Source: Janibacter limosus (lineage in GTDB: Bacteria; Actinomycetota; Actinomycetes; Actinomycetales; Dermatophilaceae). Taken from it: a stretch of DNA of 64,000 nucleotides. A program made the position numbers and the translations under genes. Below the pieces are notes generated by a model that saw nothing but the letters and a program-made list of their open reading frames with translations, did no database searches and had not been told where the DNA came from. This document shows, in pieces, positions 15,156-35,393 of this stretch (position 1 is the stretch's first letter; each line of letters begins with the position of its first letter). The stretch is from assembly GCF_004295485.1 (NCBI RefSeq), contig NZ_CP036164.1, positions 2,356,001 to 2,420,000 on the forward strand, written 5' to 3'.

Positions 15156-15938
15156 TCAGCTCAGACCCGGCCAGCGCGGCGCGCGCTTCTCGGCGAAGGC
15201 CCGCACGCCCTCGGCCCGATCGGCGCTGAAGGCCGTGTCGTGCCAGCGGGCGTCCTCGATGTCCAGGCCCTCGTCGACCGTGACGTCCAACCCCGCGCGC
15301 ATGGCCGCCTTGGCGTTGCGGACACCGACCGGTGAGTGCTGGGCGATCCTCGCGGCCATGGCGAGGGCCTCCCCCTTCGCGTCGTCGACGAACCGGTCGA
15401 CGAGACCCAGGCGAGCGCCCTCCTCGCCGCCGATCCGCCGCGCGGTGAAGATCAGGTCGGCGGCCCGCGACCAGCCGATCCGACGGGTGAGCAGCTGGGT
15501 CCCCCCGCCCCCGGGGATGACCCCGACGGAGACCTCCGGCAGCGCGAAGCCGGCCCGGGGGCCCGCGACGATCAGGTCGCACGCGAGCGCGATCTCGCAC
15601 CCGCCTCCGAGGGCATGTCCGTCGACCGCCGCGATCGTCGGCACCGGCAGGTCGTACAGCGCCCGGTAGGCCAGCCGGTTGCCCGGGCGCTGGGCCCGCA
15701 GGTCGTCGTCGCTGAACCCGTTGCGCTCCTTCAGGTCCGCCCCGACGCAGAAGGCCTTGGCGTGGCTCGAGGTCACGACGACCGCACGCACCGACGTGTC
15801 GGCGCGCAGCTCGTCCCCCGCCGCGACGAGGGCCTGCGCCATCGCCGTGGAGACGGCATTCATCGCCTCGGGTCGGTCGAGGACGACCTCGGCGACGCCA
15901 CCGTCGTGACGCTCGATGCGGACGAGGGACTTGGTCAT
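15156..15938 (-). CDS. Enoyl-CoA hydratase/isomerase of the box cluster
   Basis: A 260-residue crotonase. The oxyanion-hole segments are AFCVGADLKE (about 67-76) and ALGGGCEIALACD (about 110-122). The catalytic-Glu region is FALPEVSVGVIPGGGGTQ. Last gene of the nine-gene leftward operon that begins with boxC. In the pathway it would hydrate 2,3-dehydroadipyl-CoA (or isomerise the 3,4 form) to give 3-hydroxyadipyl-CoA. A Shine-Dalgarno (GAAAGG) sits upstream of the ATG, 17 bases after the thiolase stop. Confidence 0.85.
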   Translation of the reverse strand: MTKSLVRIERHDGGVAEVVLDRPEAMNAVSTAMAQALVAAGDELRADTSVRAVVVTSSHAKAFCVGADLKERNGFSDDDLRAQRPGNRLAYRALYDLPVPTIAAVDGHALGGGCEIALACDLIVAGPRAGFALPEVSVGVIPGGGGTQLLTRRIGWSRAADLIFTARRIGGEEGARLGLVDRFVDDAKGEALAMAARIAQHSPVGVRNAKAAMRAGLDVTVDEGLDIEDARWHDTAFSADRAEGVRAFAEKRAPRWPGLS

Positions 15939-15955
15939 GGTGCAGGCCTTTCGCG

Positions 15956-17164
15956 TCAGGGGCGGGCGAGCAGTGCGGCGATGCCCTGGCCCACGCCGAT
16001 GCACATCGTGGCGATCGCGTGGTCCAGGTCGTCGTCGGCCATCGAGATGGCTGCCGAGAGGGCGATCCGGGCGCCGCTCATGCCGAGCGGGTGGCCGAGC
16101 GCGATCGCGCCCCCGTGCGGGTTGACCCGCGGGTCGTCGTCGGCGATGCCGAGCTCGCGCAGCACCGCCAGCCCCTGCGAGGCGAAGGCCTCGTTGAGCT
16201 CGATGACCCCGACCGCGTCGAGCTGCACGCCGGTGCGCTGGAGCAGGCGCTGGACCGCAGGTGCTGGTCCCATGCCCATCACGCGCGGCTCGACGCCGAC
16301 AGCCGTCACGGCGTCGACCCGGGCGATCGGCGTCAGCCCGTGGCGCTCGACGGCTTCCTCCGAGGCGACGAGCAGGGCGGCGGCCCCGTCGTTGACGCCC
16401 GAGGCATTGCCTGCCGTGACCGAGCCGCCCTCGAAGATCGGGCGCAGGCCGGCGAGCGCCTCGACCGACGTCGAGCGCGGGTGCTCGTCGGTGTCGACGA
16501 GCACCGGGTCGGCCTTGCGTCGCCGCACGCTCACCGGGACAATCTCGCGCGCCAGCCGCCCGGAGGCGATGGCCGCGGCCGCGCGCTCCTGCGAGCGGAG
16601 CGCGAAGGCGTCCTGGTCCTCGCGCGAGACGTCGTGGTCCACCGCGACGTTTTCGGCAGTGCGCGGCATCGGGTCGGTGCCGTACATGCGCTCCATCTGC
16701 GGGTTGACGAAGCGCCAGCCGATCGTCGTGTCCTCGAGCGTCATCCCGCGACTGAAGGCACTGTCGGCCTTGGGCAGGACGAAGGGAGCGCGGCTCATGC
16801 TCTCCGCTCCCCCAGCGATCATGAGGTCGGCGTCACCGGCGACGATCGCGCGGGCCGCGTAGCCCACGGCGTCGAGCCCGGAGCCGCAGAGCCGGTTGAT
16901 CGTCGTGCCGGGCACCGAGACCGGCAGCCCGGCGAGCAGGGCCGCCATCCGCGCGATGTTGCGGTTGTCCTCGCCGGCCTGGTTGGCATTGCCGAGCACG
17001 ACGTCGTCGACGAGCGCCGGGTCGAGCCCGTCGTGGCGCCCCATCAGCTCACGGATGACGTGGGCGGCCAGGTCGTCGGGGCGCACGCTGGAGAGCGCGC
17101 CGCCGTAGCGACCGATGGGCGTGCGGACGCCGTCGACGATGTAGGCCCGACGGGCCTCGCTCAC
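15956..17164 (-). CDS. 3-oxoadipyl-CoA-type thiolase
   Basis: A 402-residue acetyl-CoA acyltransferase. The nucleophilic Cys is in NRLCGSGLDAVG (about 88-99), the His in NPHGGAIALGHPLG and the second Cys in TMCIGVGQG. The RTPIGRYGGALS start and the motif spacing resemble PcaF/PaaJ. Its role here is thiolysis of 3-oxoadipyl-CoA to succinyl-CoA and acetyl-CoA, the final step of the box route. GTG at 17164 overlaps the upstream DUF6158 stop by four bases, so translation is probably coupled. Confidence 0.88.
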   Translation of the reverse strand: MSEARRAYIVDGVRTPIGRYGGALSSVRPDDLAAHVIRELMGRHDGLDPALVDDVVLGNANQAGEDNRNIARMAALLAGLPVSVPGTTINRLCGSGLDAVGYAARAIVAGDADLMIAGGAESMSRAPFVLPKADSAFSRGMTLEDTTIGWRFVNPQMERMYGTDPMPRTAENVAVDHDVSREDQDAFALRSQERAAAAIASGRLAREIVPVSVRRRKADPVLVDTDEHPRSTSVEALAGLRPIFEGGSVTAGNASGVNDGAAALLVASEEAVERHGLTPIARVDAVTAVGVEPRVMGMGPAPAVQRLLQRTGVQLDAVGVIELNEAFASQGLAVLRELGIADDDPRVNPHGGAIALGHPLGMSGARIALSAAISMADDDLDHAIATMCIGVGQGIAALLARP

Positions 17165-17697
17165 TGGTCGCCCGCCAGCCGCGCCCGGCCGGCGTCGGTG
17201 AGGACGCGGTCGGTGCCCTCGGTGGCGACGAGCTGCGGGTCCGACTTGTAGAGGTCGGCGCGCACGGCGGGGTCGAGGCCGACCTCGCGCGCGGCCTGGT
17301 GGGCCTCGAGCTTGTTGAGCCGCCCACCGTTGTCGGCCATCCGCTGGAGGAAGGCGCGCACCGGGTCGCCGGCAGCCGCCGCGGACGGGGTCTGCGGGTC
17401 GGGCAGCTCGACGAGCGCCTCGAGCTGGGCGATGACCGCACGGACGGTCTCGCGCCACGAGGCGGCGGTCTGGGCGATGTCGGTGGCGGCGCCGCCGCTG
17501 CCCTGCCAGGTGCGCTTGGGGTAGCGGTGGACGTACTCGCGCTCGAGCTCGAGCATGCGAGCGGTGTGGTGGGCGAACTGCTCGGCGCTGCCGTGCAGGA
17601 AGACCCAGTTGCGGGTCTCGTGGGCTCGCTTGCCCTGCGACTCGAGCTCCTCGTCGCTCAGCTCGGATGCGGGGACACCCTGGGTGGCGTCGTTCAT
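17161..17697 (-). CDS. DUF6158-like protein in the box operon
   Basis: A 178-residue protein of unknown function. Residues 7-60 (GVPASELSDEELESQGKRAH, FLHGSAEQFAHHTARMLELE) look like the small actinobacterial DUF6158 family. The last 65 residues (DPVRAFLQRMADNGGRLNKL onward) form a helical, winged-helix-like extension ending in a TEGTDRVLTDAGRARL segment. No catalytic motif or membrane segment is seen. It is embedded between the gamma-carbonic-anhydrase-like and thiolase genes and overlaps the thiolase start, so it is expressed with the degradation genes. Stabilisation of an enzyme complex is a guess only. AAGGGA precedes the ATG at 17697. Confidence 0.6.
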   Translation of the reverse strand: MNDATQGVPASELSDEELESQGKRAHETRNWVFLHGSAEQFAHHTARMLELEREYVHRYPKRTWQGSGGAATDIAQTAASWRETVRAVIAQLEALVELPDPQTPSAAAAGDPVRAFLQRMADNGGRLNKLEAHQAAREVGLDPAVRADLYKSDPQLVATEGTDRVLTDAGRARLAGDQ

Positions 17698-17719
17698 GAT
17701 CTTTCCCTTCATCGGTGCG

Positions 17720-18241
17720 TCAGTCGAGCCGACGCAGCTGGTCGCGATAGCGGGTGGAGTTGTGGAGGTACTCGCCGACGCCGAAGCGGATCCAGTCCGC
17801 GGCCTCGGGTGGGGCGGGGCGCACCTTGGCGGGGACACCGACGGCCATCGAGGACTCGGGGATCGTGGCGTGCTCGGTGACCACGGCCCCGGCCCCGATC
17901 ACCGACCGCGCGCCGATGGTGGCGAAGTTGAGGACGACCGACCCGGAGCCGATCAGGCAGCCGTCGCCGATCGTGCAGCCCTCGAGATGGACGTTGTGCC
18001 CGACGACGCAGTCGGCGCCGACGGCGGTCGGCTGCTCCTCGATGCAGTGGACGATCGTGCCGTCCTGCACCGAGCTGCGGTCGCCGACGATGATCCGCCC
18101 GAAGTCGGCGCGCAGCACCGCGGTCGGCCACACCGACGCCTCCTCGCCGAGCGTGACCGCGCCGATCACGACCGCGTCCGGGTGGACGTAGGCGGAGTCC
18201 GGGATGACCGGGACCAGGTCGCCGAGTGCGTAGATCGCCAT
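17720..18241 (-). CDS. Gamma-carbonic-anhydrase-fold protein, PaaY-like
   Basis: A 173-residue left-handed beta-helix protein with hexapeptide repeats (VIGAVTLGEEASVWPTAVLR, IIVGDRSSVQDGTIVHC). Candidate metal-ligand histidines are in VHC, GHNVH and HLEGC. PaaY-type members act as thioesterases that clear dead-end CoA thioesters in phenylacetate degradation. A similar housekeeping role for epoxide- or oxepin-type benzoyl-CoA by-products is likely here but inferred. It starts one base after the amidohydrolase stop, fully within the operon. Confidence 0.75.
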   Translation of the reverse strand: MAIYALGDLVPVIPDSAYVHPDAVVIGAVTLGEEASVWPTAVLRADFGRIIVGDRSSVQDGTIVHCIEEQPTAVGADCVVGHNVHLEGCTIGDGCLIGSGSVVLNFATIGARSVIGAGAVVTEHATIPESSMAVGVPAKVRPAPPEAADWIRFGVGEYLHNSTRYRDQLRRLD

Positions 18242-18242
18242 G

Positions 18243-19103
18243 TCAGGCCACCTGCGGCAGGTCGCGGTAGACACGAAGGGCGTTGCCGCCCAGTACCGCA
18301 GCCACGTCCGCGTCGGGCACCAGGTCGGCGACGGCGCGGGCGTTGAGGTCGGTCCCGGGCACGCCGGGCCAGTCGGTCGCGAAGATCATCTTCTTGGCCA
18401 GACGCTGCAGACCCGCGGCGGCGTAGTACTCGGGCAGCCGCTTGGGCGGCAGCCCCGACAGCTCGATCCACACGTGCGGGTTGCTCATCGCCATGAAGGC
18501 CGCCTGCTCGTACCACCAGCCGCGCCCACCGTGCGCGAGGACGATGTCGAGCTCGGGGAAGTCCCGCGCGACGGGCAGCAGGTAGGTCGGGTCGGCGTAC
18601 TGGTTGGACGACCCGGCGAAGGTCGACGTCCCGCAGTGCACGACGAGCGGGGCCCGCTCCTCCACCAGCACCTGATAGGCCGGGTAGAGCATCGGGTCGT
18701 CGCAGCGGAAGCCGCCGTGGACCGGGTGCAGCTTCAGCCCCGCAGCCCCCAGCCCGAGCTGGCGGCGCACCTCGTCACCGATCGGGTGGTGCAGGTGCGG
18801 GTTGACATTGCCCATCGGCCGGAAGCGCTGCGGGTTGTGCTCGACGATCGGCAGCAGGTCGTCGAAGAGCTGCATGCCGGTCGCCTTGGGGCTGTACTCG
18901 CAGAAGATCACGGCGACGTCCACGCCCTGGTCGGCGAAGAGGTCGTCGATGACATCGGGACGGGGTCTCCCTTCGCCGTCCCAGGCCCGCTCGAGCAGGC
19001 CCTCCGGGCCGAACTGGCGCGCCCAGTCGATCCACGAGGGGGCGAGGGTCGACAGGACGGGCACGTGGACGTGCGCGTCGACGAGCTGGTGTCCGTCGAG
19101 CAC
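18243..19103 (-). CDS. Amidohydrolase-family metal-dependent hydrolase of the box operon
   Basis: A 286-residue TIM-barrel amidohydrolase-2 family protein. Metal ligands are in DAHVHV (9-14), LVVHCGTS, VLAHGGRGWW and FATDWPG. Family members include decarboxylases and lactone or ring hydrolases; the sequence does not decide which. Placed between the ferredoxin and the PaaY-like gene, it could hydrolyse a lactone or side product of ring cleavage. It starts with GTG at 19103, six bases after the ferredoxin stop. Confidence 0.72.
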   Translation of the reverse strand: MLDGHQLVDAHVHVPVLSTLAPSWIDWARQFGPEGLLERAWDGEGRPRPDVIDDLFADQGVDVAVIFCEYSPKATGMQLFDDLLPIVEHNPQRFRPMGNVNPHLHHPIGDEVRRQLGLGAAGLKLHPVHGGFRCDDPMLYPAYQVLVEERAPLVVHCGTSTFAGSSNQYADPTYLLPVARDFPELDIVLAHGGRGWWYEQAAFMAMSNPHVWIELSGLPPKRLPEYYAAAGLQRLAKKMIFATDWPGVPGTDLNARAVADLVPDADVAAVLGGNALRVYRDLPQVA

Positions 19104-19109
19104 GGCGCC

Positions 19110-19439
<330 letters not shown>

Positions 19440-19453
19440 GTCGAATTCCTCTC

Positions 19454-20470
19454 TCAGGCGGGCTGCGGGACGGCAGGCTGCTGGTCAGTCGAGTGTCCCG
19501 GAAATAGTTGCGCGTCGGGGTCGATGTGCACCGCCGCGTTGTTGACGGCCGTGGCGACCTCGCCGAAGCCGACGGCGATGAGGCGGACCTTGCCGTCGTA
19601 GTCGGTGATGTCGCCGGCGGAGAAGACGCCCGCGACATTGGTGCGCATGGCCGGGTCGACGACGAGGTGACGGTTGTCGTGCAGCTCGACACCCCACTCG
19701 CGAAGGGGGCCGAGGTTGGCCGTGAAGCCCAGCGCAGCCACGAGCTTGGTGCAGGGCAACGACCGGGGGTCCTCTCCCTTCGGCGTGATCGTCACGGTCT
19801 CCAGGAGGTCACCACCGTTGGTCTCGGTGACCTGGGCGTTGAGGACGACCTCGACCGGCGCCGCCTCCATCTGCTCGACCGACCCGTGGTGGGCGCGGAA
19901 CTTGTCGCGCCGGTGCACGAGGGTGACGCTCTTGGCGATCGGGTGGAGCATGTTGGCCCAGTCCACCGCGGAGTCACCACCGCCGACGATGACGACGTCC
20001 TGCCCGGCGTACTCCGCCGAGCTCGGCACGAAGTACTCCAGCCCGCGGCCGAGGAAGTCCTCGCCCGCCGGCAGGGTGCGCGGGGTGAAGGTGCCGATGC
20101 CACCGGTCACGATGACCGCGCCGGCGTCGATGGTGTCGGCCGTGCTCGTCGTGACGACGAGACGCTCACGCCCTTCGCCGTCGGGCACGTGCTCGAGCCC
20201 CTGGGCCTCCTGACCCAGCAGGTACTGCGGGTCGTAGGGGGCGGCTTGCTCGACGAGGTTGGAGATGAGCTGGCGCCCGGAGATCGCGGGGAACCCGGCG
20301 ATGTCGAAGATCTGCTTCTCCGGGTACATCGCGGTGACCTGGCCGCCGACCTGGCTGAGGCTGTCGACGACAGCCGTGCTCAGACCGCGGACCCCGGCGT
20401 AGTAGGCGCCGAAGAGGCCCACCGGTCCGGCGCCGACGATGAGCAGGTCGACCTTCGTGGTGGTGCTCAT
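19454..20470 (-). CDS. Thioredoxin-reductase-type ferredoxin-NAD(P)H reductase
   Basis: A 338-residue FAD/NAD(P) protein. FAD site LIVGAGPVGLFGAYYAG (about 8-24), NAD(P) site VVIVGGGDSAVDWANML (about 165-181) and a C-terminal FSAGDITDY FAD motif. It lacks the CxxC disulphide of true thioredoxin reductases, and VGFGEVATAVNNA near the end is typical of TrxR-like ferredoxin-NADP reductases. With the adjoining ferredoxin it should deliver electrons to BoxB. No BoxA-type fused ferredoxin-reductase is present in the window. Its ATG overlaps the ligase stop by four bases. Confidence 0.85.
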   Translation of the reverse strand: MSTTTKVDLLIVGAGPVGLFGAYYAGVRGLSTAVVDSLSQVGGQVTAMYPEKQIFDIAGFPAISGRQLISNLVEQAAPYDPQYLLGQEAQGLEHVPDGEGRERLVVTTSTADTIDAGAVIVTGGIGTFTPRTLPAGEDFLGRGLEYFVPSSAEYAGQDVVIVGGGDSAVDWANMLHPIAKSVTLVHRRDKFRAHHGSVEQMEAAPVEVVLNAQVTETNGGDLLETVTITPKGEDPRSLPCTKLVAALGFTANLGPLREWGVELHDNRHLVVDPAMRTNVAGVFSAGDITDYDGKVRLIAVGFGEVATAVNNAAVHIDPDAQLFPGHSTDQQPAVPQPA

Positions 20471-22050
20471 GAGATGGCCTCCTTGGCCTCGAGTTCCTTG
20501 ACGAGCGCGCGCACCTTGAAGCGCTGCATCTTGCCCGTCGCTGTCTTGGGCAGCTCGTCGACGAAGTACACGCGACGCGGACGCTTGAAGGGGGCGAGCC
20601 CCTCGCGGCACCACGTGTCGAGCTCCTGCGCGGTCACCGCGGATCGGGTGACGACGACGGCGACCGGCTTGACCAAGCCGTCGGCGTCCTCCTGGCCGAC
20701 GACGGCGCACTCGGCGATGGCGTCGTGCGCCAGGAGCCGGTCCTCGACCTCGGTCGGGCTGACCCAGATGCCACCCGCCTTGAGCAGGTCGGTGGCCCGA
20801 CCCATGCAGGTGTAGTAGCCCTCGGTGTCGCGCACGTAGGTGTCGCCGGTGTTGAGCCACTCGCCCTGGAAGACGGTGCGGGTGGCCTCGGCCCGGCGCC
20901 AGTAGCCCAGCGCCGAGGAGGCACCGCGGACGAAGAGGGTGCCCGGGTCACCGTCGGCGACGAGCGTGCCGTCGAGGTCACGGATCTCGAGGTCGTAGCC
21001 GGGCACGGCCTTGCCGGTCGTGCCCATCTTGATCTCACCGGGACGGTTGGACAGGAAGATGTGCAGGCACTCGGTCGAGCCGATCCCGTCGAGGATCTCC
21101 AGTCCGAAGCGGGTCTTCATCCGCTCCTGCACCCCCTTGGGCAGGGGCTCGCCGGCCGACGCCCCGAGACGCACGCTGGCGAAGGTGTCGTCCGGGATGT
21201 CGCTGGAGAGCAGCCCCGCGTAGAAGGTCGGCACCCCGAAGAAGAGGGTGGGTCGGCCCGTGCGGATCCGCTCGGCCATGCCCGTGGGGGTCGGCCGCTC
21301 GGGGTTGAGCACCGAGGTGGCGCCTACCGAGAGGGGGAAGAACATCGAGTTGCCGATGCCGTAGGCGAAGAAGAGCTTCGCCACCGACAGGCAGCGGTCC
21401 TGCTGCGTGATCCCGAGGACCTGCGCGCCGTAGGTGTCGCACACCAGCCGGATGTTCTCGTGCCGGTGCATCGCTCCCTTCGGCTTGCCGGTGGTCCCCG
21501 AGGTGTACAGCCACAGGGCCCACGCGTCGGACCCTGCCGGGACCGGCTCGAGCTCGGTCGCGTCCGCCTGCGCCCCGCGGGCGACGAGGTCGTCCCACGA
21601 GAGCTGGTCGGCCCCGGTGATGACCGCGGCGTGCTCCCCCGGGTCACCGTCCCAGACGACCTGGCGCAGGTCCGGGCACTGTGCCGCGGCACCCGCGGCG
21701 GGCTCGGCGAAGGTGGAGCTCGCGACGAGGGCGACGGCCCCCGAGTCGTTGATGATCTCGGCGAGCTCGGCGGGGCCGTACATCGTCGAGATGGGCACCG
21801 CGACGAAGCCGCCGCGCATGGCACCGAGGACGCCCGCGAAGAGGGCGATGTCGTCGTTGGCGACGAAGACGACGCGGTCGTCGCGGCGCATGCCGAGCGA
21901 GCGGAAGCCCGCCGCGGCACGGCCGGTCAGCTCGACCAGCTGGTCATAGGTCACCGTCTGCGAGGGCGTCTCGACGGCCGGGTGGTCACCACGCTCTGCG
22001 GCGACACGGTCGACGAGCCAGGCTGCAGCGTTGAAGCCGGCTTCGGTCAT
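20467..22050 (-). CDS. Benzoate-CoA ligase
   Basis: A 527-residue acyl-CoA synthetase of the ANL family. AMP-binding motif LYTSGTTGKPKGAMHRHEN (about 177-195), GIGSTECLHIFLSNRPGEIK, and the C-terminal YYTCMGRATDLLKAGGIWVS and TATGKMQRFK lysine motif. The SKxGSTE-like region and the length resemble benzoate- and aryl-CoA ligases, and the position between boxC and the electron-transfer genes supports benzoate as substrate. It activates benzoate to benzoyl-CoA, the entry step. Five bases separate the boxC stop boundary from the start of this gene. A related aryl acid as substrate is possible. Confidence 0.85.
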   Translation of the reverse strand: MTEAGFNAAAWLVDRVAAERGDHPAVETPSQTVTYDQLVELTGRAAAGFRSLGMRRDDRVVFVANDDIALFAGVLGAMRGGFVAVPISTMYGPAELAEIINDSGAVALVASSTFAEPAAGAAAQCPDLRQVVWDGDPGEHAAVITGADQLSWDDLVARGAQADATELEPVPAGSDAWALWLYTSGTTGKPKGAMHRHENIRLVCDTYGAQVLGITQQDRCLSVAKLFFAYGIGNSMFFPLSVGATSVLNPERPTPTGMAERIRTGRPTLFFGVPTFYAGLLSSDIPDDTFASVRLGASAGEPLPKGVQERMKTRFGLEILDGIGSTECLHIFLSNRPGEIKMGTTGKAVPGYDLEIRDLDGTLVADGDPGTLFVRGASSALGYWRRAEATRTVFQGEWLNTGDTYVRDTEGYYTCMGRATDLLKAGGIWVSPTEVEDRLLAHDAIAECAVVGQEDADGLVKPVAVVVTRSAVTAQELDTWCREGLAPFKRPRRVYFVDELPKTATGKMQRFKVRALVKELEAKEAIS

Positions 22051-22055: not shown

Positions 22056-23750
<1,695 letters not shown>

Positions 23751-23874: not shown

Positions 23875-24588
23875 TCAGCCGACCCCGAGCAGGCGCCGGG
23901 CCCTGGGTGCGTCGCTGCGGAACTCCTCGGTGGTGCTCTCGTGGACGATCCGACCCTTCTCCATGACCACGACGCGGTCGGCGACGGAGAAGGCCGCTCG
24001 CAGGTCCTGCTCGACGAGCAGGACGGTGATGCCCTCCTGCGCCAGCTCGCGCACGATGCCCATCACCTGCGCGACGATCGCGGGGGCGAGCCCGTCAGAG
24101 GGCTCGTCCAGGAGCAGCACGCGTGGGCCGAGCAGGAGTGCGCGGCCGATGGCGAGCATCTGCTGCTCACCGCCGGAGAGCTGGTCGCCGCGGTTGGTCC
24201 GGCGCTCGCGCAGTCGCGGCATGAGCTCGTAGATGCGCTCCAGCGACCACTCCCCGGAGTGCTTGCCCTCGGCGATGCGCAGGTTGTTGTGCACGGTGAG
24301 TGGCGCGAAGACCCGTCTGCCCTGGGGGACGATCGCGACGCCGACCCTGGCCCTGGCGTGCGTGGGCAGGCTGGTGATGTCCTCGTCGCCGACGTGGATG
24401 CTGCCGCTGTGGGTGCTGACGAAGCCCATGATCGTCGACATCAGCGTCGTCTTGCCCACGCCGTTGCGGCCGAGCAGGGCGACCGTCTCGCCGGCGACCA
24501 CGTGCAGGTCGACACCGGTCAGGACCGTGCTGCCGCCGTACCCGGCCTCGACGCCGGCGATCTTCAGGTCTGCTCCGGTGGCGCTCAT
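23875..24588 (-). CDS. Branched-chain-type ABC transporter ATPase (LivF type)
   Basis: A 237-residue ABC ATPase: Walker A GRNGVGKTT (about 40-48), Q-loop VPQGRRVF, signature LSGGEQQ, Walker B VLLLDEPSDG and the H-loop region. Fifth and last gene of a leftward importer operon and of the LivF kind. In this setting the importer most likely carries benzoate or a related aromatic acid; that substrate is inferred from position only. ATG 24588 overlaps the upstream ATPase stop (ATGA). Confidence 0.9.
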   Translation of the reverse strand: MSATGADLKIAGVEAGYGGSTVLTGVDLHVVAGETVALLGRNGVGKTTLMSTIMGFVSTHSGSIHVGDEDITSLPTHARARVGVAIVPQGRRVFAPLTVHNNLRIAEGKHSGEWSLERIYELMPRLRERRTNRGDQLSGGEQQMLAIGRALLLGPRVLLLDEPSDGLAPAIVAQVMGIVRELAQEGITVLLVEQDLRAAFSVADRVVVMEKGRIVHESTTEEFRSDAPRARRLLGVG

Positions 24589-25439
24589 CCGGCGGCCTCC
24601 TGGGTCGGGGCCGGTGATGTCGTCGACACCGGCAGGTCGGGCGGGACGGGGGTCTCGTGGAAGAGCTCCTCGAGGGAGCCCTCGCCGAGGTAGGCCTGCT
24701 GGACGGCCGGGTCCTCGCGGACCTCGTCGGCGGGCCCGTCGGCGATGAGGCCGCCGAGGTGGAGGACGCTGACGCGGTCGGCCAGCTGGAAGACCAGCTC
24801 GAGGTCGTGCTCGATGATCACGACCGTCAGGTCCTCGGGCAGCGAGCGGACCAGCTCGATGAAGCGGTGGCTCTCTGCCGGGGACATCCCGGCCGCCGGC
24901 TCGTCGAGGAGGAGCAGCTTGGGGCGGGTCGCGAGGGCGACGGCCACCTCCAGCTGTCGGCGCTCACCGTGGCTGAGGTTGCCGGTCATGATGTGCGAGC
25001 GGTCGGTCAGGCCGACGTCCGCGACGCACTGCTCGGCGAGGTCGTCGATCTCGCTGTTGCGTCGCGTCGAGGAGGTCACCCACGACATGCCCTTGCCGGC
25101 CACCCGCTGGGCGGCGAGGGCGACATTGTCCAGCGGGTTCATCGACAGGAAGAGCGAGCTGTGCTGGAAGGTCTTGCCCAGCCCCCTTCGGGCCCGCCAT
25201 GCAGCGGAGCGCTTGGTGACGTCGTCACCGGAGAAGAGGATCTGCCCACTGGTGGCCGGCAGGCCACCGGCCACGAGGTTGAAGAGGGTGGACTTGCCAG
25301 CTCCGTTGGGGCCGATGAGGGCGTGCCGACCCCCCTTCGCCACCTCGAGGCTGACGTCGTCGACGGCCACGAGCGCGCCGTACTTCTTGGTGACATTGCG
25401 CAGGGTCAGGGCCGGCGGTGCGGCGGTCGTCGCGCTCAT
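24585..25439 (-). CDS. Branched-chain-type ABC transporter ATPase (LivG type)
   Basis: A 284-residue ABC ATPase: Walker A GPNGAGKST (about 43-51), an LSHGERR signature, Walker B LLLLDEPAAGM, and the LivG-type insertion after the Q-loop (KTFQHSSLFLSMNPLDNV). The C-terminus has a Pro/Thr-rich tail of about 20 residues not needed for the fold. Overlaps of four bases on both sides tie it into the transporter operon. Confidence 0.9.
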   Translation of the reverse strand: MSATTAAPPALTLRNVTKKYGALVAVDDVSLEVAKGGRHALIGPNGAGKSTLFNLVAGGLPATSGQILFSGDDVTKRSAAWRARRGLGKTFQHSSLFLSMNPLDNVALAAQRVAGKGMSWVTSSTRRNSEIDDLAEQCVADVGLTDRSHIMTGNLSHGERRQLEVAVALATRPKLLLLDEPAAGMSPAESHRFIELVRSLPEDLTVVIIEHDLELVFQLADRVSVLHLGGLIADGPADEVREDPAVQQAYLGEGSLEELFHETPVPPDLPVSTTSPAPTQEAAG

Positions 25440-26398: not shown

Positions 26399-27300
26399 GC
26401 CGTCGCCTCCTTCTTGCCGAGCAGACCCTGGGGTCGCAGGAGCAGGACCAGGCCCATCGCCCCGAAGACGAGGAAGGACGCGTGGTCCGGCAGGAGCGAG
26501 ACCCCGAGGGTCTCGATCTGGCCGATGACCAGGGCGCCGACGAGGGCGCCGCTGACGGACCCGAGGCCACCGATGACGACGACCACCAGGCCCAGGAGCA
26601 GCACCCGGTTGTCCAGGCCCGGGTAGGCCGAGAGGATCGGGCCCCCGATGACGCCGCCGGCGGCGGCCAGGGCCGCGCCGGCGGCGAAGACACCGGTCAC
26701 CAGTCGCTTGGTGTCGACCCCCAGGGCGGAGACCATCTGGGGGTCGACGACCGAGGCGCGCACGAGCGAGCCCACGCGGGTGCGCTCGATGACGTACAGC
26801 GCGCCGATGGCGAGCAGCCCGCCGACGACGATGACGACGAGTCGGTAGACCGGGTAGGACTGGCCGAAGATCGTCGCGCTGCCGTCAAGACCGGCGGGTG
26901 CCGGGATGGAGCGCACGTCGTTGCCGAACTTCATCGCGATGAGGTCGGAGACCACGAGCGCGATGCCGAGGGTGAGCAGGGCCTGGTCGAGGTGACCGCG
27001 GTGGGCGACCGGCCGGACCATCGCCGACAACCCCCACCCGCTGAACCCGCCGATGACCGCAGCGAGCAGGACCGCTCCCCCGAAGGCGAGCAGCGTCATC
27101 TTCGTCCCCCCGCCCAGCAGGGCGACGGCGACGTAGGCGCCCAGGAGGTAGATCGCGCCGTGGGCGAGGTTGAGCACGTCCATGACGCCGAAGACGAGGG
27201 ACAGTCCCAGGGCGATGACGAAGAGCAGGACGCCGGTGGCGAGCCCGTCGATCATCGTCACCCCGTTGTCGGTGATGAAGTTGGCCGTCAGTGCGGTCAC
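26395..27300 (-). CDS. Branched-chain-type ABC transporter permease (LivH type)
   Basis: A 301-residue integral membrane protein. The LivH hallmark LGLSLVFGVMDVLNLAHGAIYLLGAY lies at about 31-56 and ERTRVGSLVRASVVDPQMVSALG is the coupling loop. GTG at 27300 lies 30 bases after the binding-protein stop. It pairs with the LivM-type permease. The whole five-gene set is expected to be coregulated with box genes through the operator in the promoter at 28599-28627. Confidence 0.9.
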   Translation of the reverse strand: MTALTANFITDNGVTMIDGLATGVLLFVIALGLSLVFGVMDVLNLAHGAIYLLGAYVAVALLGGGTKMTLLAFGGAVLLAAVIGGFSGWGLSAMVRPVAHRGHLDQALLTLGIALVVSDLIAMKFGNDVRSIPAPAGLDGSATIFGQSYPVYRLVVIVVGGLLAIGALYVIERTRVGSLVRASVVDPQMVSALGVDTKRLVTGVFAAGAALAAAGGVIGGPILSAYPGLDNRVLLLGLVVVVIGGLGSVSGALVGALVIGQIETLGVSLLPDHASFLVFGAMGLVLLLRPQGLLGKKEATA

Positions 27301-27330
27301 GAGGATCTCCCAGCTGTGGGTGTGGACGGG

Positions 27331-28518
27331 TCAGGAAGAGGGCTTGGTGAGCTCGTCCTCGATGACATTGGTCCAGGCGTCACCCTTCTTCTCGACCTTG
27401 CGCAGGTAGTAGGTCTGGTCCGGTCCCTGCTTGTCGGAGAAGGACCACGGGCCGCGGGGGCTGTCGACCTCGCCCGTCGCCTTGAGGCCCTCGACGATCT
27501 GGTCGCCGCCGGTGCCCTTGGTCAGCGCCTTGTCCAGGACGGCGCCCGCGTCGTAGGTCTGCATCGAGTAGACCGTCGGCGGCACCTCGTTGGCCGCGGT
27601 GTACTCCTTGACGAAGGTCGCGTTCGTGGGGTTGTCCAGCTCCGAGGAGTAGTGCAGCGAGGTGAAGATGCCCTCGGCGGACTTGCCCTGCGCCGTGAGC
27701 GCCCCACCCTCGGTCAGGAAGCCGGTGGCGTAGAAGGGGATGTCCTCGCGCAGGCCGAGCTGGTCGTACTGCTTGACGAAGGTGACGGCCTCGGCGCCGG
27801 CGTAGAAGGCGAAGACCGCCTTGGGCTTGGCGTTGCGCGCCTTCTGCAGGTACGGCTGGAAGTTGGTCGTCTTGCCGAAGGGGGTCATCTGGGTCCCGGC
27901 GATCTGGCCGCCGGCCGCCACGAAGGACTTCTTGAAGCCGGCGAGGAACTCGTCGCCCGCCGCGTAGTCGGGGCCGACGAGGTAGACCTTGCCGTCACCG
28001 ACCTCCTTGGCGACGTGGCCACCGATGGCCTCGCCGACCTCACCGTTGGCGAAGCTGGTGCGCCACACGTAGGGAGACGAGGACTTGCCGGTGATGTCGT
28101 TGGCGCCAGCGTTGGTGATGATGAGCGGCTTCTTGGCCTCGGTGAAGGAGTCGGTCAGACCCAGGGCCACGGCGGAGTTGACGATCCCGACCACGGCGTC
28201 GACGGACTCGTCCTGGGCGAGCTTGGTGCCGGCCGGGACACCGTCCTCGGGGCCCGCGCCCTCGTCGACGACGGTCAGCTCGACGTCCTTGCCACCGAGC
28301 TTGTTGTCGTTCTGGTCGAGGTAGAGGCGGAAGCCGGCCTCCATGTCCTTGCCGAGGGGGGCGTAGACGCCCGACTGGGGGACGAGCAGCGCGATCTTGA
28401 CCTTGCTGTCGTCGCCGCTGCCGCCGTCACCCCCGCCTCCGGAGAGCGCCGACCCGCCGCAGGCGGTGAGGGCGAGGGTCACGGTGATGGCCAGGGGAAG
28501 GGTGCGGGTGGCGCGCAT
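27331..28518 (-). CDS. ABC transporter substrate-binding lipoprotein
   Basis: A 395-residue periplasmic-binding protein type 1 (Leu/Ile/Val-binding family). An N-terminal signal with lipobox LTACGGS (Cys at about 21) is followed by a Gly/Ser linker. The mature domain starts KVKIALLVPQSGVYAPLG. Related family members bind amino acids or aromatic carboxylates; the operon context suggests benzoate or a derivative. ATG 28518 has GGAG upstream; an in-frame ATG four codons earlier is an alternative. First gene of the importer operon, divergent from the PaaX-type regulator. Confidence 0.88.
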   Translation of the reverse strand: MRATRTLPLAITVTLALTACGGSALSGGGGDGGSGDDSKVKIALLVPQSGVYAPLGKDMEAGFRLYLDQNDNKLGGKDVELTVVDEGAGPEDGVPAGTKLAQDESVDAVVGIVNSAVALGLTDSFTEAKKPLIITNAGANDITGKSSSPYVWRTSFANGEVGEAIGGHVAKEVGDGKVYLVGPDYAAGDEFLAGFKKSFVAAGGQIAGTQMTPFGKTTNFQPYLQKARNAKPKAVFAFYAGAEAVTFVKQYDQLGLREDIPFYATGFLTEGGALTAQGKSAEGIFTSLHYSSELDNPTNATFVKEYTAANEVPPTVYSMQTYDAGAVLDKALTKGTGGDQIVEGLKATGEVDSPRGPWSFSDKQGPDQTYYLRKVEKKGDAWTNVIEDELTKPSS

Positions 28519-28598
28519 CGAATACTCCAGGGGTGCGGTCTCGTCATTGAGGGCAACGACGGGGCGCAAAGCTCCCGACCCCGTCGTCGGTAGCACTG

Positions 28599-28627
28599 AG
28601 AATGGACGTGATTTGTTCTACAGTCAA
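28599..28627 (-). promoter_or_regulatory. Importer-operon promoter with TGTAGAA operator
   Basis: On the minus strand: -35 TTGACT (28622-28627), a 17-base spacer and -10 CATTCT (28599-28604). The TGTAGAA core (28616-28622) overlaps the -35. The 271-base gap to the divergent regulator is the most A+T-rich stretch nearby. It also contains CGAAACTGTTTCG, a 13-base palindrome just upstream, a second candidate operator. Confidence 0.55.
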
Positions 28628-28789
28628 TAGTCGTATCGAAACTGTTTCGTAGTAGTTTGAACTCAGGCGGACCTAACTTCAACGACGAAGGGGAGGTCGC
28701 ACAGCGTGTCGCCCGGCGGCGCCCTTGCACGATCGGGAGCGGCGCGGGTGTCACTCTGGGCACGACACCCGGACGAGGAGACGACAGAC

Positions 28790-29653
28790 GTGAGCACCAA
28801 GGTCGACGACGTGAGCGCACCGGTCGACGGAGAGCGTTCCAGAGCAGCCAGCGCGCGCTCCATGCTCTTGACGATCCTCGGTGAGTTCGTCCACACCCGG
28901 GACGGATCCGCCTGGACCGGAACGCTGGTCGCCGCGCTGGGCGCCCTGGGGGTCGAGGAGAAGTCGGCGCGGCAGACGATCGCCCGCACGGCGAGCCAGG
29001 GGATCATCGAGTCCGAGCGGCACGGCCGACGCGTGCGGTGGCAGCTCACCGACACCGGCCGCGCGCTGCTCGCCGAGGGCACCGAGCGCATCTACAGCTT
29101 CCTGCGCAGCCGACGCACGTGGGACGGGCAGTGGCTCGTCGTGGCTGCGGCGGTGCCCGAGTCGCAGCGCAGCACCCGGCACAAGCTGCGCACCCGGTTG
29201 ACCTGGCTGGGCCTGGGCTGCCCGACCCCCGGCATGTGGATCATCCCGGACGCCGACAAGGAGGACGAGGTGCAGGGCGCCCTGTCCGACCTGGACCTCG
29301 CCGACCGCGCCTTCGCCTGGGTGGGTCGTCGCGCCGCGGGCACCGACCCGGCATCGCTCATCGACGCCGCCTGGGACCTGGCCGAGGTCCGCACCCGCTA
29401 CCAGGAGTTCGCGGCCGACTTCACCGATCGGAGCGTCGACGACGACACCGCCGCCTTCGCCGCGCAGGTGGAGCTCATCCAGGCCTGGCGCTCCTTCCCC
29501 TTCATCGACCCCGACCTGCCCGCCGAGCTGCTCCCCCCGGACTGGCCCGGGCCGGCCGCCGCCACCCTCTTCCACACCCGCCGCGACCGCTGGCACCGCC
29601 GCGCCCAGCGCGAGTGGGACCGGATGGAGCAGGCGGCCGGCGAGCGCACCTGA
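28790..29653 (+). CDS. PaaX-family transcriptional regulator
   Basis: A 287-residue PaaX-type regulator. N-terminal winged helix: SMLLTILGEFV, then LGVEEKSARQTIARTASQGIIESERHGRRVRWQLTDTGR in segments (about 20-85). Central PaaX domain with WDGQWLVVAAAVPESQRSTRH and the MWIIPDAD segment. C-terminal PaaX domain with LIQAWRSFPFIDPDLP. PaaX proteins repress aryl-CoA degradation genes and are released by the CoA thioester; benzoyl-CoA would be the expected inducer here. GTG at 28790 has GAGGAG upstream. It is divergent from the importer operon and is the only regulator found in the box cluster. Confidence 0.88.
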   Translation: MSTKVDDVSAPVDGERSRAASARSMLLTILGEFVHTRDGSAWTGTLVAALGALGVEEKSARQTIARTASQGIIESERHGRRVRWQLTDTGRALLAEGTERIYSFLRSRRTWDGQWLVVAAAVPESQRSTRHKLRTRLTWLGLGCPTPGMWIIPDADKEDEVQGALSDLDLADRAFAWVGRRAAGTDPASLIDAAWDLAEVRTRYQEFAADFTDRSVDDDTAAFAAQVELIQAWRSFPFIDPDLPAELLPPDWPGPAAATLFHTRRDRWHRRAQREWDRMEQAAGERT

Positions 29654-30134: not shown

Positions 30135-30667
30135 CTAGAAGCGGTGCGCCTCGACGTCGACGTAGTCGCCACTCTCCTCCTCGCCCTGCGAGCGCGAGTC
30201 GGACGGTGCCGCCGTCGTGCTCGGCTCGGGGAGGCGGCCGGAGCCGGGCTTGCCGACGTGCTTGCGCAGCGTCGCGTCGCTCTCGTTGCCCTTGTAGCCG
30301 CGCACCGCGAGCCAGTCGTGCACGGCGTCCCGGTCGGGGTGGGTGTCGCGCACGCTGTTGTGCACGTAGTTGATGCCTCGCGAGCGGGCCTCCTGCTCGA
30401 GGTGGTCCATCACGAAGGCACCGACGCCGGCGCCCTGGCGGGCGGAGTCGACGACGAGGGTGATCTCGGCGTCGCCACCCCACGTCGTGTCGAGGAACCC
30501 GAAGCCCACCACGTCGTCGCCGTCCTTGGCGACGAACCAGTCACCGGGCAGGTCGGCCCCGTCGGCGAAGTCGAGGGCAAGGGCCCCGTCCGGGGCGGAG
30601 GCGGCGATACGCGCCTTGTCCGCGTCCCAGACGGGGTTGTCCTCGCGCGCCCACGTCAGCTGGACGC

Positions 30668-30671
<4 letters not shown>
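30135..30671 (-). CDS. GNAT N-acetyltransferase coupled to boxB
   Basis: A 178-residue GNAT protein. Core strands and the acetyl-CoA loop are visible: VVGFGFLDTTW, EITLVVDSARQGAGVGAFVMDHLEQEARSRG in segments (about 65-100), then YVHNSVRDTH. The last 50 residues (basic KHVGKPGSGR, then acidic and Ser-rich) look disordered. GTG at 30671 overlaps the boxB stop by four bases, so the two should be made together. The acceptor is unknown. Acylation of BoxB, or removal of surplus acyl-CoA, are untested ideas. Confidence 0.75.
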
Positions 30672-32164
<1,493 letters not shown>

Positions 32165-32204
32165 GCTCTCTCCTAAGGTCGCGTCCTTGCGAGGTCTTAC
32201 CTAT

Positions 32205-32233
32205 GTTCTACACGTCTATGCGCGTGGCGACAA
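32205..32233 (-). promoter_or_regulatory. boxB promoter with TGTAGAAC operator
   Basis: On the minus strand: -35 TTGTCG (32228-32233), a 17-base spacer and -10 TAGAAC (32205-32210). GTGTAGAACAT covers the -10, nearly identical to GTGTAGAAGAT at the boxC promoter. The leader is about 35 bases. Confidence 0.6.
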
Positions 32234-32260
32234 GACTTTGTGGAATGTTTTCGCTGAGCG

Positions 32261-33811
32261 TCACTCCCCCAGACGGCCGAGGACCGCCGGGCTGCCCTGG
32301 ATGGCGGTGCGCTGCAGGTGGGCGTGGACGGCGCGCAGGCCGCCCTCCTCCTGTCCCCCACCGGCGCGGCCGGGACCGCCGTGGACGAGCTGCGGCATCG
32401 GGGTGCCGTGCCCGGTGGACTCGGGGGCACTGTCCCGGTCGAGGACGAGGATCCGGCCGTGGAAGGGGGCCGCCCCGGCGATCACGTCCGTCACGAAGTC
32501 CGCGTCGGCCGAGACGACGGAGCCGGCAAGGCTCCCTTCGCCCCGGGCCAGCAGCTCGACGGCGTGCTCGACGTCGCGGTACCCGATGAGCGAGCTGACC
32601 GGACCGAAGGCCTCGACCTCGTGCGGCTCGGCCCGGTCGGCGTCGTCGACGCGCACGAGGACGGGCGACATGAAGGCGCCCTTGTCCGCGTCGGCGCCGA
32701 TGACGTCGACACGCTCGAGGTCGCCGTAGACGATCTGCCCGGCCTGCGCGATGCGGGCCGCGGCGGCGCGCACGTCGTCACGCTGGTCGGTCCCGACGAG
32801 GGCGCCCATGCGCACCCCCTCCGCTCCCGGGGCGCCGATGCCGATGCCACCCAGGCGGGCCGCGACGGCCTCGGCCACCGCGTCCATCTGCGCGGCGGGC
32901 ACGAGCGCGCGCCGGATGGCCGTGCACTTCTGGCCGGCCTTGACGGTCATCTCGGTCACGAGCGCCTTGACGAAGAGGTCGAACTCCGGCTCGCCGGGCA
33001 CCGCGTCGGGGCCGAGGACCGAGGCGTTGAGGCTGTCCGCCTCGGCGTTGAAGTGGGCCGAGCGGCGCGTCACCGCGGCATCGCCGCGCAGCATCGCCGC
33101 CGTGTCCGCGGAGCCGGTGAAGCCGATGTGGTCCTGGCCGCCGAGCTCGTCGAAGAGCCCGGGGATGGAGCCGGCGACGATCTGCAGCGCACCCTCGGGG
33201 AGGGCGCCGGACTCGATCATCATCCGCACCGCCTCGACAGCGATGTGGGCGGTCGGGGTCGCCGGCTTGACGATCGTCGGGACGCCGGCGAGCAGGGCGG
33301 GCGCCAGCTTCTCGAGCATGCCCCACACGGGGAAGTTGAAGGCGTTGATCTGCAGCGAGAGCCCGTGCGGGCTGGTGAGCACGTGCCGCCCGCCGAAGAC
33401 GCCCTCCTTGCCCAGCTGGATGAAGTCGTCCTCGACGATCACCGTGCCGTCGGGCAGGCCCTTGCGTCCGAGGGAGGAGTAGACCATCGCGGTCCCGATG
33501 CCGCCGTCGACGTCGACGGCCGCGTCACGGGCGGTGCACCCCGCCTGCGCGGACAGCTCGTAGAGCCGGTCCTTGCCGGCCTGCACTGCACCCGCAGCCG
33601 CCTTGAGCGCGGCCGCCCGCTCGGGGAAGGTCATCGCGCGAAGGGAGGGACCCCCCTTCGCCTTGGCGTGCGCCACGACGCCACCGAGGTCGATGCCCTC
33701 GCTGGACACCCGCGTCACGGTCTCGCCGGTCACGGCGTCGCGGACCTCGCGGCCCTCGCCCGTCCCGGCCACCCAGCGGCCGCCTGCATAGCTCTCGAGG
33801 ATCTCGCTCAT
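32261..33811 (-). CDS. boxD: 3,4-dehydroadipyl-CoA semialdehyde dehydrogenase (BoxD-like)
   Basis: A 516-residue aldehyde dehydrogenase of the PaaN/PaaZ-BoxD group. Segments: INAFNFPVWGMLEKLAPALLAGVP, VKPATPTA, GFTGSADTAA, the Glu region NAEADSLNASVLGPD and catalytic Cys GQKCTAIRRA (about 293-302). It would oxidise the semialdehyde released by BoxC to 3,4-dehydroadipyl-CoA. No hydratase domain follows, which separates it from full-length PaaZ. ATG 33811 overlaps the upstream 3-hydroxyacyl-CoA dehydrogenase stop. A palindrome with CGAAGGG/CCCTTCG arms (33638-33661) lies inside the coding region and encodes AKGGPSLR. Confidence 0.88.
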   Translation of the reverse strand: MSEILESYAGGRWVAGTGEGREVRDAVTGETVTRVSSEGIDLGGVVAHAKAKGGPSLRAMTFPERAAALKAAAGAVQAGKDRLYELSAQAGCTARDAAVDVDGGIGTAMVYSSLGRKGLPDGTVIVEDDFIQLGKEGVFGGRHVLTSPHGLSLQINAFNFPVWGMLEKLAPALLAGVPTIVKPATPTAHIAVEAVRMMIESGALPEGALQIVAGSIPGLFDELGGQDHIGFTGSADTAAMLRGDAAVTRRSAHFNAEADSLNASVLGPDAVPGEPEFDLFVKALVTEMTVKAGQKCTAIRRALVPAAQMDAVAEAVAARLGGIGIGAPGAEGVRMGALVGTDQRDDVRAAAARIAQAGQIVYGDLERVDVIGADADKGAFMSPVLVRVDDADRAEPHEVEAFGPVSSLIGYRDVEHAVELLARGEGSLAGSVVSADADFVTDVIAGAAPFHGRILVLDRDSAPESTGHGTPMPQLVHGGPGRAGGGQEEGGLRAVHAHLQRTAIQGSPAVLGRLGE

Positions 33812-34686
33812 GCTGTCTTCTCCTTGGCGTCGTTCCAGTCGTAGAAGCCGCGTCCGGTCTTGCGGCCGTGATGGCCCTGCTCGACGAGGTCGACGAGCAG
33901 CTGCGGCGGGGCAAATCGGGGTCCGAGCTCGCGCTCGAGATAGCGGGCGATGCCCAGGCGCACGTCGAGACCGACGAGGTCGGTCAGCCGGAGCGGACCC
34001 ATCGGGTGGCCGTAGCCGAGCGACATGGCGGCGTCGATGTCCTCCGCTGAGGCGACGCCGGCCTCGAGCATGCGGATGGCCTCCAGGCCGATCGCGACGC
34101 CGAGGCGGCTGCTGGCGAAGCCCGGCGAGTCCGCGACGACGACCGGCGTCTTGCCCAGGCCCTCGCTCACCCACTCGACGGCGCGCTCGCGCCACGTCTC
34201 GTCGGTGGCCGTCGCGATGACGATCTCGACGAGCTTGCTCGCGGGGACGGGGTTGAAGAAGTGCAGCCCGAGGAGCCGCTCCGGGTGGCGAAGGGAGGTC
34301 GCCAGCGCATCGAGGGAGATGCTCGAGGTGTTGGTGGCCAGCGCGGCGTCGTCGGCGATGACCGCCTCGACCCGCTGGAGGGTGTCGCGCTTGAGCTGCT
34401 CGTCCTCCGGGACGGCCTCGACGACCAGGCCGCAGTCGGCCAGGTCGGCCGCCTCGGTGGTCGTCGTCAGGCGGCCCATCGGCTCGGCGGCGTCAGCGAT
34501 CTTGCCGCGCTCGACGCTCTTGTCGCAGGAGCGCTGGACGCGCTCGCGAGCAGCGGTCGCAGCAGCCTCGTCGCGCTCGAGGAGGACGACCGAGCTGCCG
34601 GCGAGGAGCAGTCCGTGGACGATGCCGGCGCCCATCTGACCACCGCCGACCACTCCGGTGCGGGTTGGGATGTTGCCGTCGGTCAT
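33808..34686 (-). CDS. 3-hydroxyacyl-CoA dehydrogenase
   Basis: A 292-residue single-domain 3-hydroxyacyl-CoA dehydrogenase of PaaH/3-hydroxybutyryl-CoA type. Rossmann motif GVVGGGQMGAGI (about 11-22), NTSSISLDAL, catalytic His in LLGLHFFNPVP, and the C-terminal DLVGLDVRLGIARYLE and GRKTGRGFYDW. It should oxidise 3-hydroxyadipyl-CoA to the 3-oxo form. Four-base overlaps couple it to the SDR gene upstream and boxD downstream. Confidence 0.88.
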   Translation of the reverse strand: MTDGNIPTRTGVVGGGQMGAGIVHGLLLAGSSVVLLERDEAAATAARERVQRSCDKSVERGKIADAAEPMGRLTTTTEAADLADCGLVVEAVPEDEQLKRDTLQRVEAVIADDAALATNTSSISLDALATSLRHPERLLGLHFFNPVPASKLVEIVIATATDETWRERAVEWVSEGLGKTPVVVADSPGFASSRLGVAIGLEAIRMLEAGVASAEDIDAAMSLGYGHPMGPLRLTDLVGLDVRLGIARYLERELGPRFAPPQLLVDLVEQGHHGRKTGRGFYDWNDAKEKTA

Positions 34687-35393
34687 GCCAGGCCTCCAGT
34701 TGCGTCGATGATGTCGCCGGTGATCCACGCGGCGTCCGGGCCCACCAGGAGGGCGATGACGCCCGCGATGTCCTCGGGGGTGCCCAGGCGGCGCATCGCG
34801 TTGCTCCCGGCCATCGCCTCGATGGCCTTGTCGCTCGTGATCGAGCGCAGGTACTCGGTGTCGGTCGCACCGGGGCGCACGACGTTGACAGTCACGCCAC
34901 GTTTGGCGACCTCCTTGGCCGCCACTCGGCTCGCTGCCTCGAGGCCGGCCTTGGCCGCCGCATAGGTGCTCTGCCGGGCCGGGGCGACGCGGGCGGCGAC
35001 GCTGGAGACCATGACGATCCGGCCCCCGTCGGCGACGCGCTTGGTCGCCTCGCGCAGCACGAGCAGCGCCGAGACGAGGTTGAGGGAGAGCGAGTCGTTG
35101 ATCTGCTCGCTCGTCAGCTCGGTGATGCGTGGGTAGTCCCAGCCACCGACGCAGTCGACGACCACGGTCAGCTCGCCCTGCTCCTGCGCCGCGTCGAAGG
35201 CGGCGACGACCCCCTCCTCGGTGGTCGCATCGACGGCGATCGCGCGCACGCGGTCACCGAGCTCGGCCACCAAGGCCTCGGCCCGCTCGGGGTGAGAGTG
35301 GTGGGTGATGGTCACGTCATGGTCCGCCGCGAGGCGACGGGTCACTGCCGCGCCGATCCCTCCGGCTCCGCCCAGTACCAGGGCAGTAGTCAT
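34683..35393 (-). CDS. Short-chain dehydrogenase/reductase of the box cluster
   Basis: A 236-residue SDR with cofactor motif GGAGGIGAA (about 8-16), VVDCVGG, catalytic Ser in MVSSVAAR and YAAAKAG (Tyr-x3-Lys). VNVVRPGATDTEY follows. The substrate is not evident. As first gene of an operon with the hydroxyacyl-CoA dehydrogenase and boxD it probably handles a hydroxy- or epoxy-acyl-CoA by-product, or duplicates the dehydrogenase step. AAGGGAG precedes the ATG. Confidence 0.8.
   Translation of the reverse strand: MTTALVLGGAGGIGAAVTRRLAADHDVTITHHSHPERAEALVAELGDRVRAIAVDATTEEGVVAAFDAAQEQGELTVVVDCVGGWDYPRITELTSEQINDSLSLNLVSALLVLREATKRVADGGRIVMVSSVAARVAPARQSTYAAAKAGLEAASRVAAKEVAKRGVTVNVVRPGATDTEYLRSITSDKAIEAMAGSNAMRRLGTPEDIAGVIALLVGPDAAWITGDIIDATGGLA

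Follow-up and report, generated by a model that had tools for sequence, protein, structure and literature searches.

The closest described system, the proteobacterial Box pathway (BoxABC-D; Azoarcus/Aromatoleum evansii), activates benzoate with a CoA ligase, epoxidizes benzoyl-CoA with the diiron enzyme BoxB, opens the epoxide with BoxC and proceeds through the semialdehyde dehydrogenase BoxD and a thiolase to acetyl-CoA, succinyl-CoA and formate, with BoxA supplying electrons as one ferredoxin–reductase polypeptide. Here we analysed positions 15156–35393 of a 64,000-nucleotide stretch of DNA (the window) from the soil bacterium Janibacter limosus, in which profile searches with NCBIfam and Pfam identified a complete aerobic benzoyl-CoA (Box) gene set. 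This cluster shares ligase, BoxB, BoxC, BoxD and thiolase with the proteobacterial pathway but has no BoxA; instead, it encodes a separate ferredoxin of the FdxA type and a putative ferredoxin–NADP(+) reductase (FNR) of the thioredoxin reductase (TrxR) type, and it adds amidohydrolase, DUF6158 and GNAT genes. We consider it very likely that this split pair replaces BoxA, with electrons passing from NAD(P)H through FNR and FdxA to BoxB. Such a modular replacement, already suggested by the first-pass annotation of this DNA, is the best reading because BoxA is absent, the pair recurs in cis without BoxA, and it co-varies with both BoxB and BoxC.

A reductase–ferredoxin pair and no BoxA

The window encodes no fused BoxA, as the first-pass annotation had stated, and the search that it proposed for a boxA homologue elsewhere in the genome (one contig of 3,545,254 bases, 99.99% complete) returned none, the top match to the BoxA family TIGR03224 scoring 27 bits against a cut-off of 459. 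Six weak TIGR03224 matches in the host genome, the box ferredoxin and a second FdxA among them, span 48–85 model positions; they carry no weight because similar matches occur in 13 of 14 control genomes. Across whole genomes for 79 of the 80 boxC loci introduced below (L042 was left out), BoxA exceeded the cut-off in eight (1 of 49 plus 7 of 30), all Pseudomonadota, and in none of the 60 actinobacterial genomes. It fell under the cut-off in 11 of the 19 non-actinobacterial genomes, one of which, G053, has a contig-edge fragment scoring 272 bits, and partial matches to the BoxA reductase domain (84–91 bits) were found in G044, G064, G066 and G078. We also used an even class sample of 296 genomes, 12 of which encode boxB; excluding the host, none of the 11 boxB genomes had BoxA at the cut-off, with partial matches of up to 82 bits (E 1e-5) in eight. 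The two samples overlap by at least one genome (G130, which has the same coordinates as G010). Given the complete single-contig genome and the uniformly negative actinobacterial result, it is extremely improbable that a true BoxA serves BoxB in trans; only an unrecognisable BoxA analogue could do so.

The two genes annotated at first pass as a ferredoxin (19110–19439) and a reductase (19454–20470) lie exactly at those coordinates on the minus strand, separated by 14 nucleotides, and the reported 4-base overlap with the ligase is real: the ATGA at 20467–20470 holds both the start codon of the reductase and the stop codon of the ligase. Residues 5–329 of the 338-residue reductase align to the ferredoxin–NADP reductase 3lzw (298 bits), which we take to be Bacillus subtilis YumC. 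Nine of its ten best solved relatives are named ferredoxin–NADP reductase, the exception being 2zbw (279 bits), named thioredoxin reductase by its depositors; the other listed entries carrying the latter name score at most 98.4 bits. None of 63 distinct sequences, among them that of the window, contains a CxxC motif in the part that aligns with the window reductase. The next best relative of the reductase in the host genome is 31% identical (93 bits). Homologue searching matched 7,933 of 7,999 scored candidates, and no FNR–FdxA fusion was found among the 120 homologues listed of those matches, all of 323–365 residues.

The description of the protein as a TrxR-type reductase therefore holds for its fold, to which the Pfam Pyr_redox_2 match attests, but does not make it a thioredoxin reductase, an identity that we rejected on the missing CxxC, on a score of 152 bits for the thioredoxin reductase family TIGR01292, whose cut-off is 343, and on the names of most solved relatives. 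If the protein were nevertheless a thioredoxin-type disulfide reductase guarding the pathway from oxidation, and no donor to BoxB, the Pyr_redox_2 and TIGR01292 matches would be expected, and several sources do label its homologues, like 2zbw, thioredoxin reductase. This is scarcely credible for a family without CxxC whose member here prefers 3lzw so strongly, and in which FdxA accompanies the reductase at every locus where the latter occurs in cis. On these sequence comparisons the protein is most simply a TrxR-type ferredoxin–NADP(+) reductase.

The ferredoxin exceeds the NF045480 (FdxA_Actino) cut-off (140 against 125 bits). Its cysteines C9, C17, C21, C25, C40, C43, C46 and C50 form a full 7Fe pattern and fall at the places of those in the solved ferredoxin 2v2k (107 bits) and the 7-Fe ferredoxin 1bc6, and their spacing predicts one [3Fe-4S] and one [4Fe-4S] cluster. 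At E 0.001 the genome yields just one further match to the FdxA family, a second, probably housekeeping, FdxA (62261–62578, minus strand; NF045480, 193 bits), which is 51% identical to the box ferredoxin.

Distribution of the pair and proposed electron supply to BoxB

The first-pass annotation had proposed a survey of actinobacterial box neighbourhoods for the same pair. A search with the window BoxC confirmed at least 595 relatives, from which we took the best 80 loci, a set biased to close relatives (61 Actinomycetota, 14 Pseudomonadota and 5 others). FNR and FdxA were found together in cis at 26 loci, BoxA at 7, FdxA alone at 4 and none of the three at 26 ('neither' loci, with at least 4 kb of sequence on both sides), and 17 loci were undecidable. 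All 26 pair loci belong to Actinomycetota and all 7 BoxA loci to Pseudomonadota, and no locus had both donors. FNR in cis was always accompanied by FdxA (26/26). Its proximity is not to the ligase alone: among recognised genes, FNR comes directly after boxB in five pair loci (L024, L033, L049, L052 and L053), where no ligase match intervenes, and after boxC in L011. The genome of L053 (G045, Geodermatophilus) has a second box cluster, L177, with BoxC, BoxB, ligase and its own FNR and FdxA. The arrangement is thus widespread, not a peculiarity of the host genome, and it is optional in cis. Closer to the host, box loci occur in Janibacter species and a Lapillicoccus (L008, L009, L010 and L014), and boxB in none of the five other genomes of its family in the class sample. 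The Janibacter terrae locus L009 has boxC, ligase, FNR and FdxA but, unlike L008 and L010, no BoxB match in the 10 kb upstream.

The pair also co-varies with the enzymes that it would serve. Over 26 rows (the window and the 25 pair loci with BoxB, BoxC, FNR and FdxA; L009 was dropped for its missing BoxB), pairwise distances correlated between BoxC and FNR (r = 0.93), BoxB and FNR (0.75), FNR and FdxA (0.69) and BoxB and FdxA (0.67), with BoxB–BoxC (0.82) as yardstick; none of 5,000 permutations reached any of these values, and host relatedness by itself yields some such correlation. In the class sample, FNR (E ≤ 1e-60) was found in 7 of the 12 genomes with boxB and in 60 of the 284 without it (Fisher p = 0.007, kinship ignored), counts that may be low as at most seven candidates per genome were scored.

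One all-box branch of the FNR tree (SH-aLRT 95) unites 14 box FNRs, that of the window among them, and the other 14 box rows sit in five further places, one of them the long-branch L079. The tree has 5 label changes against a shuffled mean of 21. This suggests several recruitments of FNR to box clusters, and suggests them only, because an approximately unbiased (AU) test does not reject a single box clade (p = 0.284; 27 versus 33 rows, with L079 removed as a long branch and L114 and L133 because no box gene lies near them) and the starred branches alone force one change. Mapped on the BoxC tree, the pair state requires 13 changes and the neither state 11, and 5 and 4 of these, respectively, are forced by well-supported branches; these repeated changes point to recurrent gain or loss of the pair in cis.

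Outside box clusters, FNR and FdxA adjoin Rieske oxygenases in L172 (4665–7417) and L187 (5532–8299), and in L170 (5766–10353) a Rieske protein lies about 2 kb off, which suggests that the pair is a general redox module of actinobacterial oxygenases. Other non-box pairs neighbour a CoA-transferase (L180), cupins (L181), an alpha/beta hydrolase (L178) or an AMP-ligase (L183), so an oxygenase is not always alongside; the neighbour test covered nine genes from 7 of 20 regions.

In the mechanism that we propose, with nucleotide preference, electron transfer and docking all predicted, the FAD of the TrxR-type FNR would take a hydride from NAD(P)H, and the enzyme would pass electrons one at a time to the FdxA-type ferredoxin. 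Once reduced, the ferredoxin would dock on BoxB and reduce its diiron centre, where O2 would be activated and benzoyl-CoA converted to 2,3-epoxybenzoyl-CoA for opening by BoxC. A weak, transient contact between donor and BoxB would ease donor exchange.

Several observations weigh against this assignment. The genes for BoxB and FNR lie in separate blocks (30668–32164 and 19454–20470), and the genome holds the second FdxA. The pair is not obligatory in cis, neither donor being present at 26 of 80 boxC loci (L026, L031, L034, L038, L039, L045 and L050 among them). FNR of this type occurs elsewhere in 12 of the 26 genomes concerned, three of which (Pseudomonadota) have an FNR only 40–43% identical, and was not found at E 1e-60 in the other 14, with only 43 candidates scored in the larger genomes; BoxB can evidently live on other donors. 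Pseudonocardia and Actinomycetospora supply examples of box loci in genomes where neither BoxA nor FNR was found. FdxA stands without FNR at L017, L018, L042 and L043, with FNR elsewhere in the genome for L017 and L018 and not found for L043. In the class sample, 5 of 12 boxB genomes yielded no FNR; L178, L180, L181 and L183 show no recognised redox-family oxygenase among the neighbours tested; and correlated distances between co-inherited neighbours do not prove contact.

Some of these observations would fit a supply of BoxB by a general cell ferredoxin and reductase, here the second FdxA and another NADPH–ferredoxin reductase, with the box pair a high-flux booster. Actinomycetota account for 21 of the 26 neither genomes, with FNR elsewhere in 9 and not found in 12; with no BoxA or pair nearby and no FNR found, BoxB in those 12 must use another donor, and a crude motif scan of the neither loci gave no consistent local candidate. 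The similarity of the two host ferredoxins and the statement, in a portion of a review, that minor amounts of BoxA suffice (PMC4498308) likewise count for a general donor. We nevertheless regard it as unlikely in this host, as the pair is kept in cis at 26 loci, tracks BoxC closely in its distances, and is present in each cluster of the genome that has two.

It is very improbable that the pair works for some other operon-encoded enzyme, such as the amidohydrolase, the PaaY-like protein or an unknown oxygenase, in place of BoxB. In the window and at most pair loci, the pair does adjoin the amidohydrolase. However, the amidohydrolase also occurs at loci without the pair (L029, L036, L037, L064, L065, L067 and L085), no match to it lies beside the pair in L049 and L053, and neither it nor the PaaY-like protein belongs to a redox family. 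BoxB is, to our knowledge, the only enzyme of the cluster that needs a reductase.

On the simplest view, BoxB has its true partner in the ferredoxin, and the reductase can be exchanged. A broader proposal, to which we would give slightly less than an even chance, makes BoxA a proteobacterial addition outside the core epoxidase: BoxB would be donor-tolerant, its supply exchanged more than once (fused BoxA, FNR with FdxA, FdxA alone or no dedicated donor), its ferredoxin face would accept different dicluster ferredoxins, and the pair would be a plug-in module for actinobacterial diiron and Rieske oxygenases.

Gene content of the cluster

Identities were assigned with curated NCBIfam cut-offs and Pfam gathering scores as thresholds. 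BoxB, BoxC, ligase, BoxD, thiolase and ferredoxin scored above their curated cut-offs, which bears out the first-pass calls for the pathway enzymes among them; the hydratase, 3-hydroxyacyl-CoA dehydrogenase, ABC importer and PaaX-type regulator, listed there too, are at their annotated places by family-level matches under the curated NCBIfam cut-offs. By gene content, the predicted route from benzoate to acetyl-CoA, succinyl-CoA and formate is complete. The minus-strand genes form two blocks on either side of the plus-strand regulator.

The upstream block (35393–30135) begins with a short-chain dehydrogenase/reductase (SDR; 34683–35393; PF13561, 152 bits), a 3-hydroxyacyl-CoA dehydrogenase (33808–34686; NF005875, 293 bits, under the cut-off of 319) and BoxD, the 3,4-dehydroadipyl-CoA semialdehyde dehydrogenase (32261–33811; NF008868, 598 bits, cut-off 444). 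These are followed by BoxB, the diiron benzoyl-CoA 2,3-epoxidase (30668–32164; TIGR03225, 754 bits, cut-off 499). BoxB aligns to the solved BoxB 3per with 635 bits, and the six residues of 3per that we take to be its diiron ligands (E120, E150, H153, D211, E240 and H243) are conserved in the alignment as E138, E168, H171, D229, E258 and H261. The last gene of the block, overlapping boxB by four bases, encodes a GNAT acetyltransferase (30135–30671; PF00583, 41 bits), whose target for acylation might be the ligase or a different box enzyme. GNAT genes were also seen in the box loci L008, L010, L018, L019 and L022.

The PaaX-type regulator (28706–29653, plus strand) exceeds the Pfam gathering scores for PaaX, PaaX_M and PaaX_C and scores 167 bits with NCBIfam PaaX (cut-off 265); we found no convincing inverted repeat as its operator in 28400–28800 or 32100–32300.

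The downstream block (28515–15156) opens with a LIV-type ABC importer (23875–28515; PF13458, 244 bits; NCBIfam urea and branched-chain families under cut-off) made up of a binding protein (27331–28515), LivH (26395–27300), LivM (25436–26398), LivG (24585–25442) and LivF (23875–24588). Its substrate is presumably benzoate. Then come BoxC, the 2,3-epoxybenzoyl-CoA dihydrolase (22056–23732; TIGR03222, 874 bits, cut-off 712; a start at 23792 is also possible), which is 98% identical to BoxC of J. limosus NBRC 16128, and the benzoate-CoA ligase (20467–22050; TIGR02262, 532 bits, cut-off 375), followed by the reductase and ferredoxin.

Adjoining the pair is the Amidohydro_2 hydrolase (18243–19103; PF04909, 126 bits). 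The hydrolase is conserved, with matches of at least 300 bits in 27 of the 80 boxC loci, some without the FNR–FdxA pair, and we know of no amidohydrolase of this kind among the Box enzymes. The block continues with the PaaY-like hexapeptide protein of the gamma carbonic anhydrase type, a possible thioesterase (17720–18274; TIGR02287, 135 bits, under the cut-off of 320), and a DUF6158 protein (17161–17712; PF19655, 58 bits, cut-off 27) with an uncertain start codon in a reading frame open from 17838; the DUF6158 gene recurs in actinobacterial box loci such as L008, L010, L012, L016, L019, L022, L024 and L033. It closes with the pcaF-type 3-oxoadipyl-CoA thiolase (15956–17161; TIGR02430, 633 bits, cut-off 597) and an enoyl-CoA hydratase for a beta-oxidation-like step (15156–15950; Pfam ECH_1, 206 bits; no NCBIfam cut-off was reached among the 25 families shown). 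The flanks (12045–15141 and 35588–37090) encode a ParA-type ATPase, DUF2252, a PHP-domain protein and an M24 aminopeptidase P and appear unrelated to benzoate.

Comparison with known systems

In the open-licence literature covered (titles, the starts of abstracts and some passages), we found no description of an FNR–FdxA pair with BoxB, and one may already exist. In the passages available from a survey of box clusters, a cluster that lacks BoxA counts as incomplete, and in the case of one proteobacterial chromosome copy the missing BoxA is taken to impede degradation (PMC10803450); boxBC are reported from uncultured UBA5794 actinobacteria in passages that do not name boxA (PMC12008989). If a split FNR–FdxA pair or a general donor serves BoxB, scoring by BoxA would discard working actinobacterial pathways. 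The variant further lends itself to testing how freely a diiron epoxidase accepts different donors, and its two redox genes form a portable module for use with actinobacterial oxygenases.

Regulation differs between the two Box systems, part of the survey giving an XRE-family regulator, BoxR, for A. evansii (PMC10803450) and the window encoding one of the PaaX type. The pair resembles BoxA in its proposed role and in combining a bacterial-type dicluster ferredoxin with an FAD reductase. In our loci BoxA is a single polypeptide that carries two CxxCxxCxxxC motifs (stop-to-stop frames of 384–458 residues at seven loci, with the L083 frame truncated at a contig end), whereas the window has two polypeptides and a 7Fe pattern in place of BoxA's two [4Fe-4S] clusters. 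The reductase half of BoxA is, as we understand it, plant-type, a fold unrelated to that of the TrxR-type flavoprotein of the window. In the proposed replacement, the dicluster-ferredoxin part would be retained in kind.

The reductase is like described TrxR-type FNRs (PDB 3lzw, 6gas, 5xhu, 5ygq and 3ab1) in its alignment to 3lzw and its lack of CxxC, but is encoded with a dedicated FdxA in a catabolic operon. Its ferredoxin shares the cysteine pattern of the actinobacterial FdxA 2v2k, presumably a mycobacterial protein, and differs by eight extra residues in the C-terminal part of the alignment. Finally, the Rieske-linked pairs of L172, L187 and L170 comprise the same two families, likewise adjacent to each other, but their neighbouring oxygenase is of the Rieske type and their FNRs lie on non-box branches of the FNR tree.

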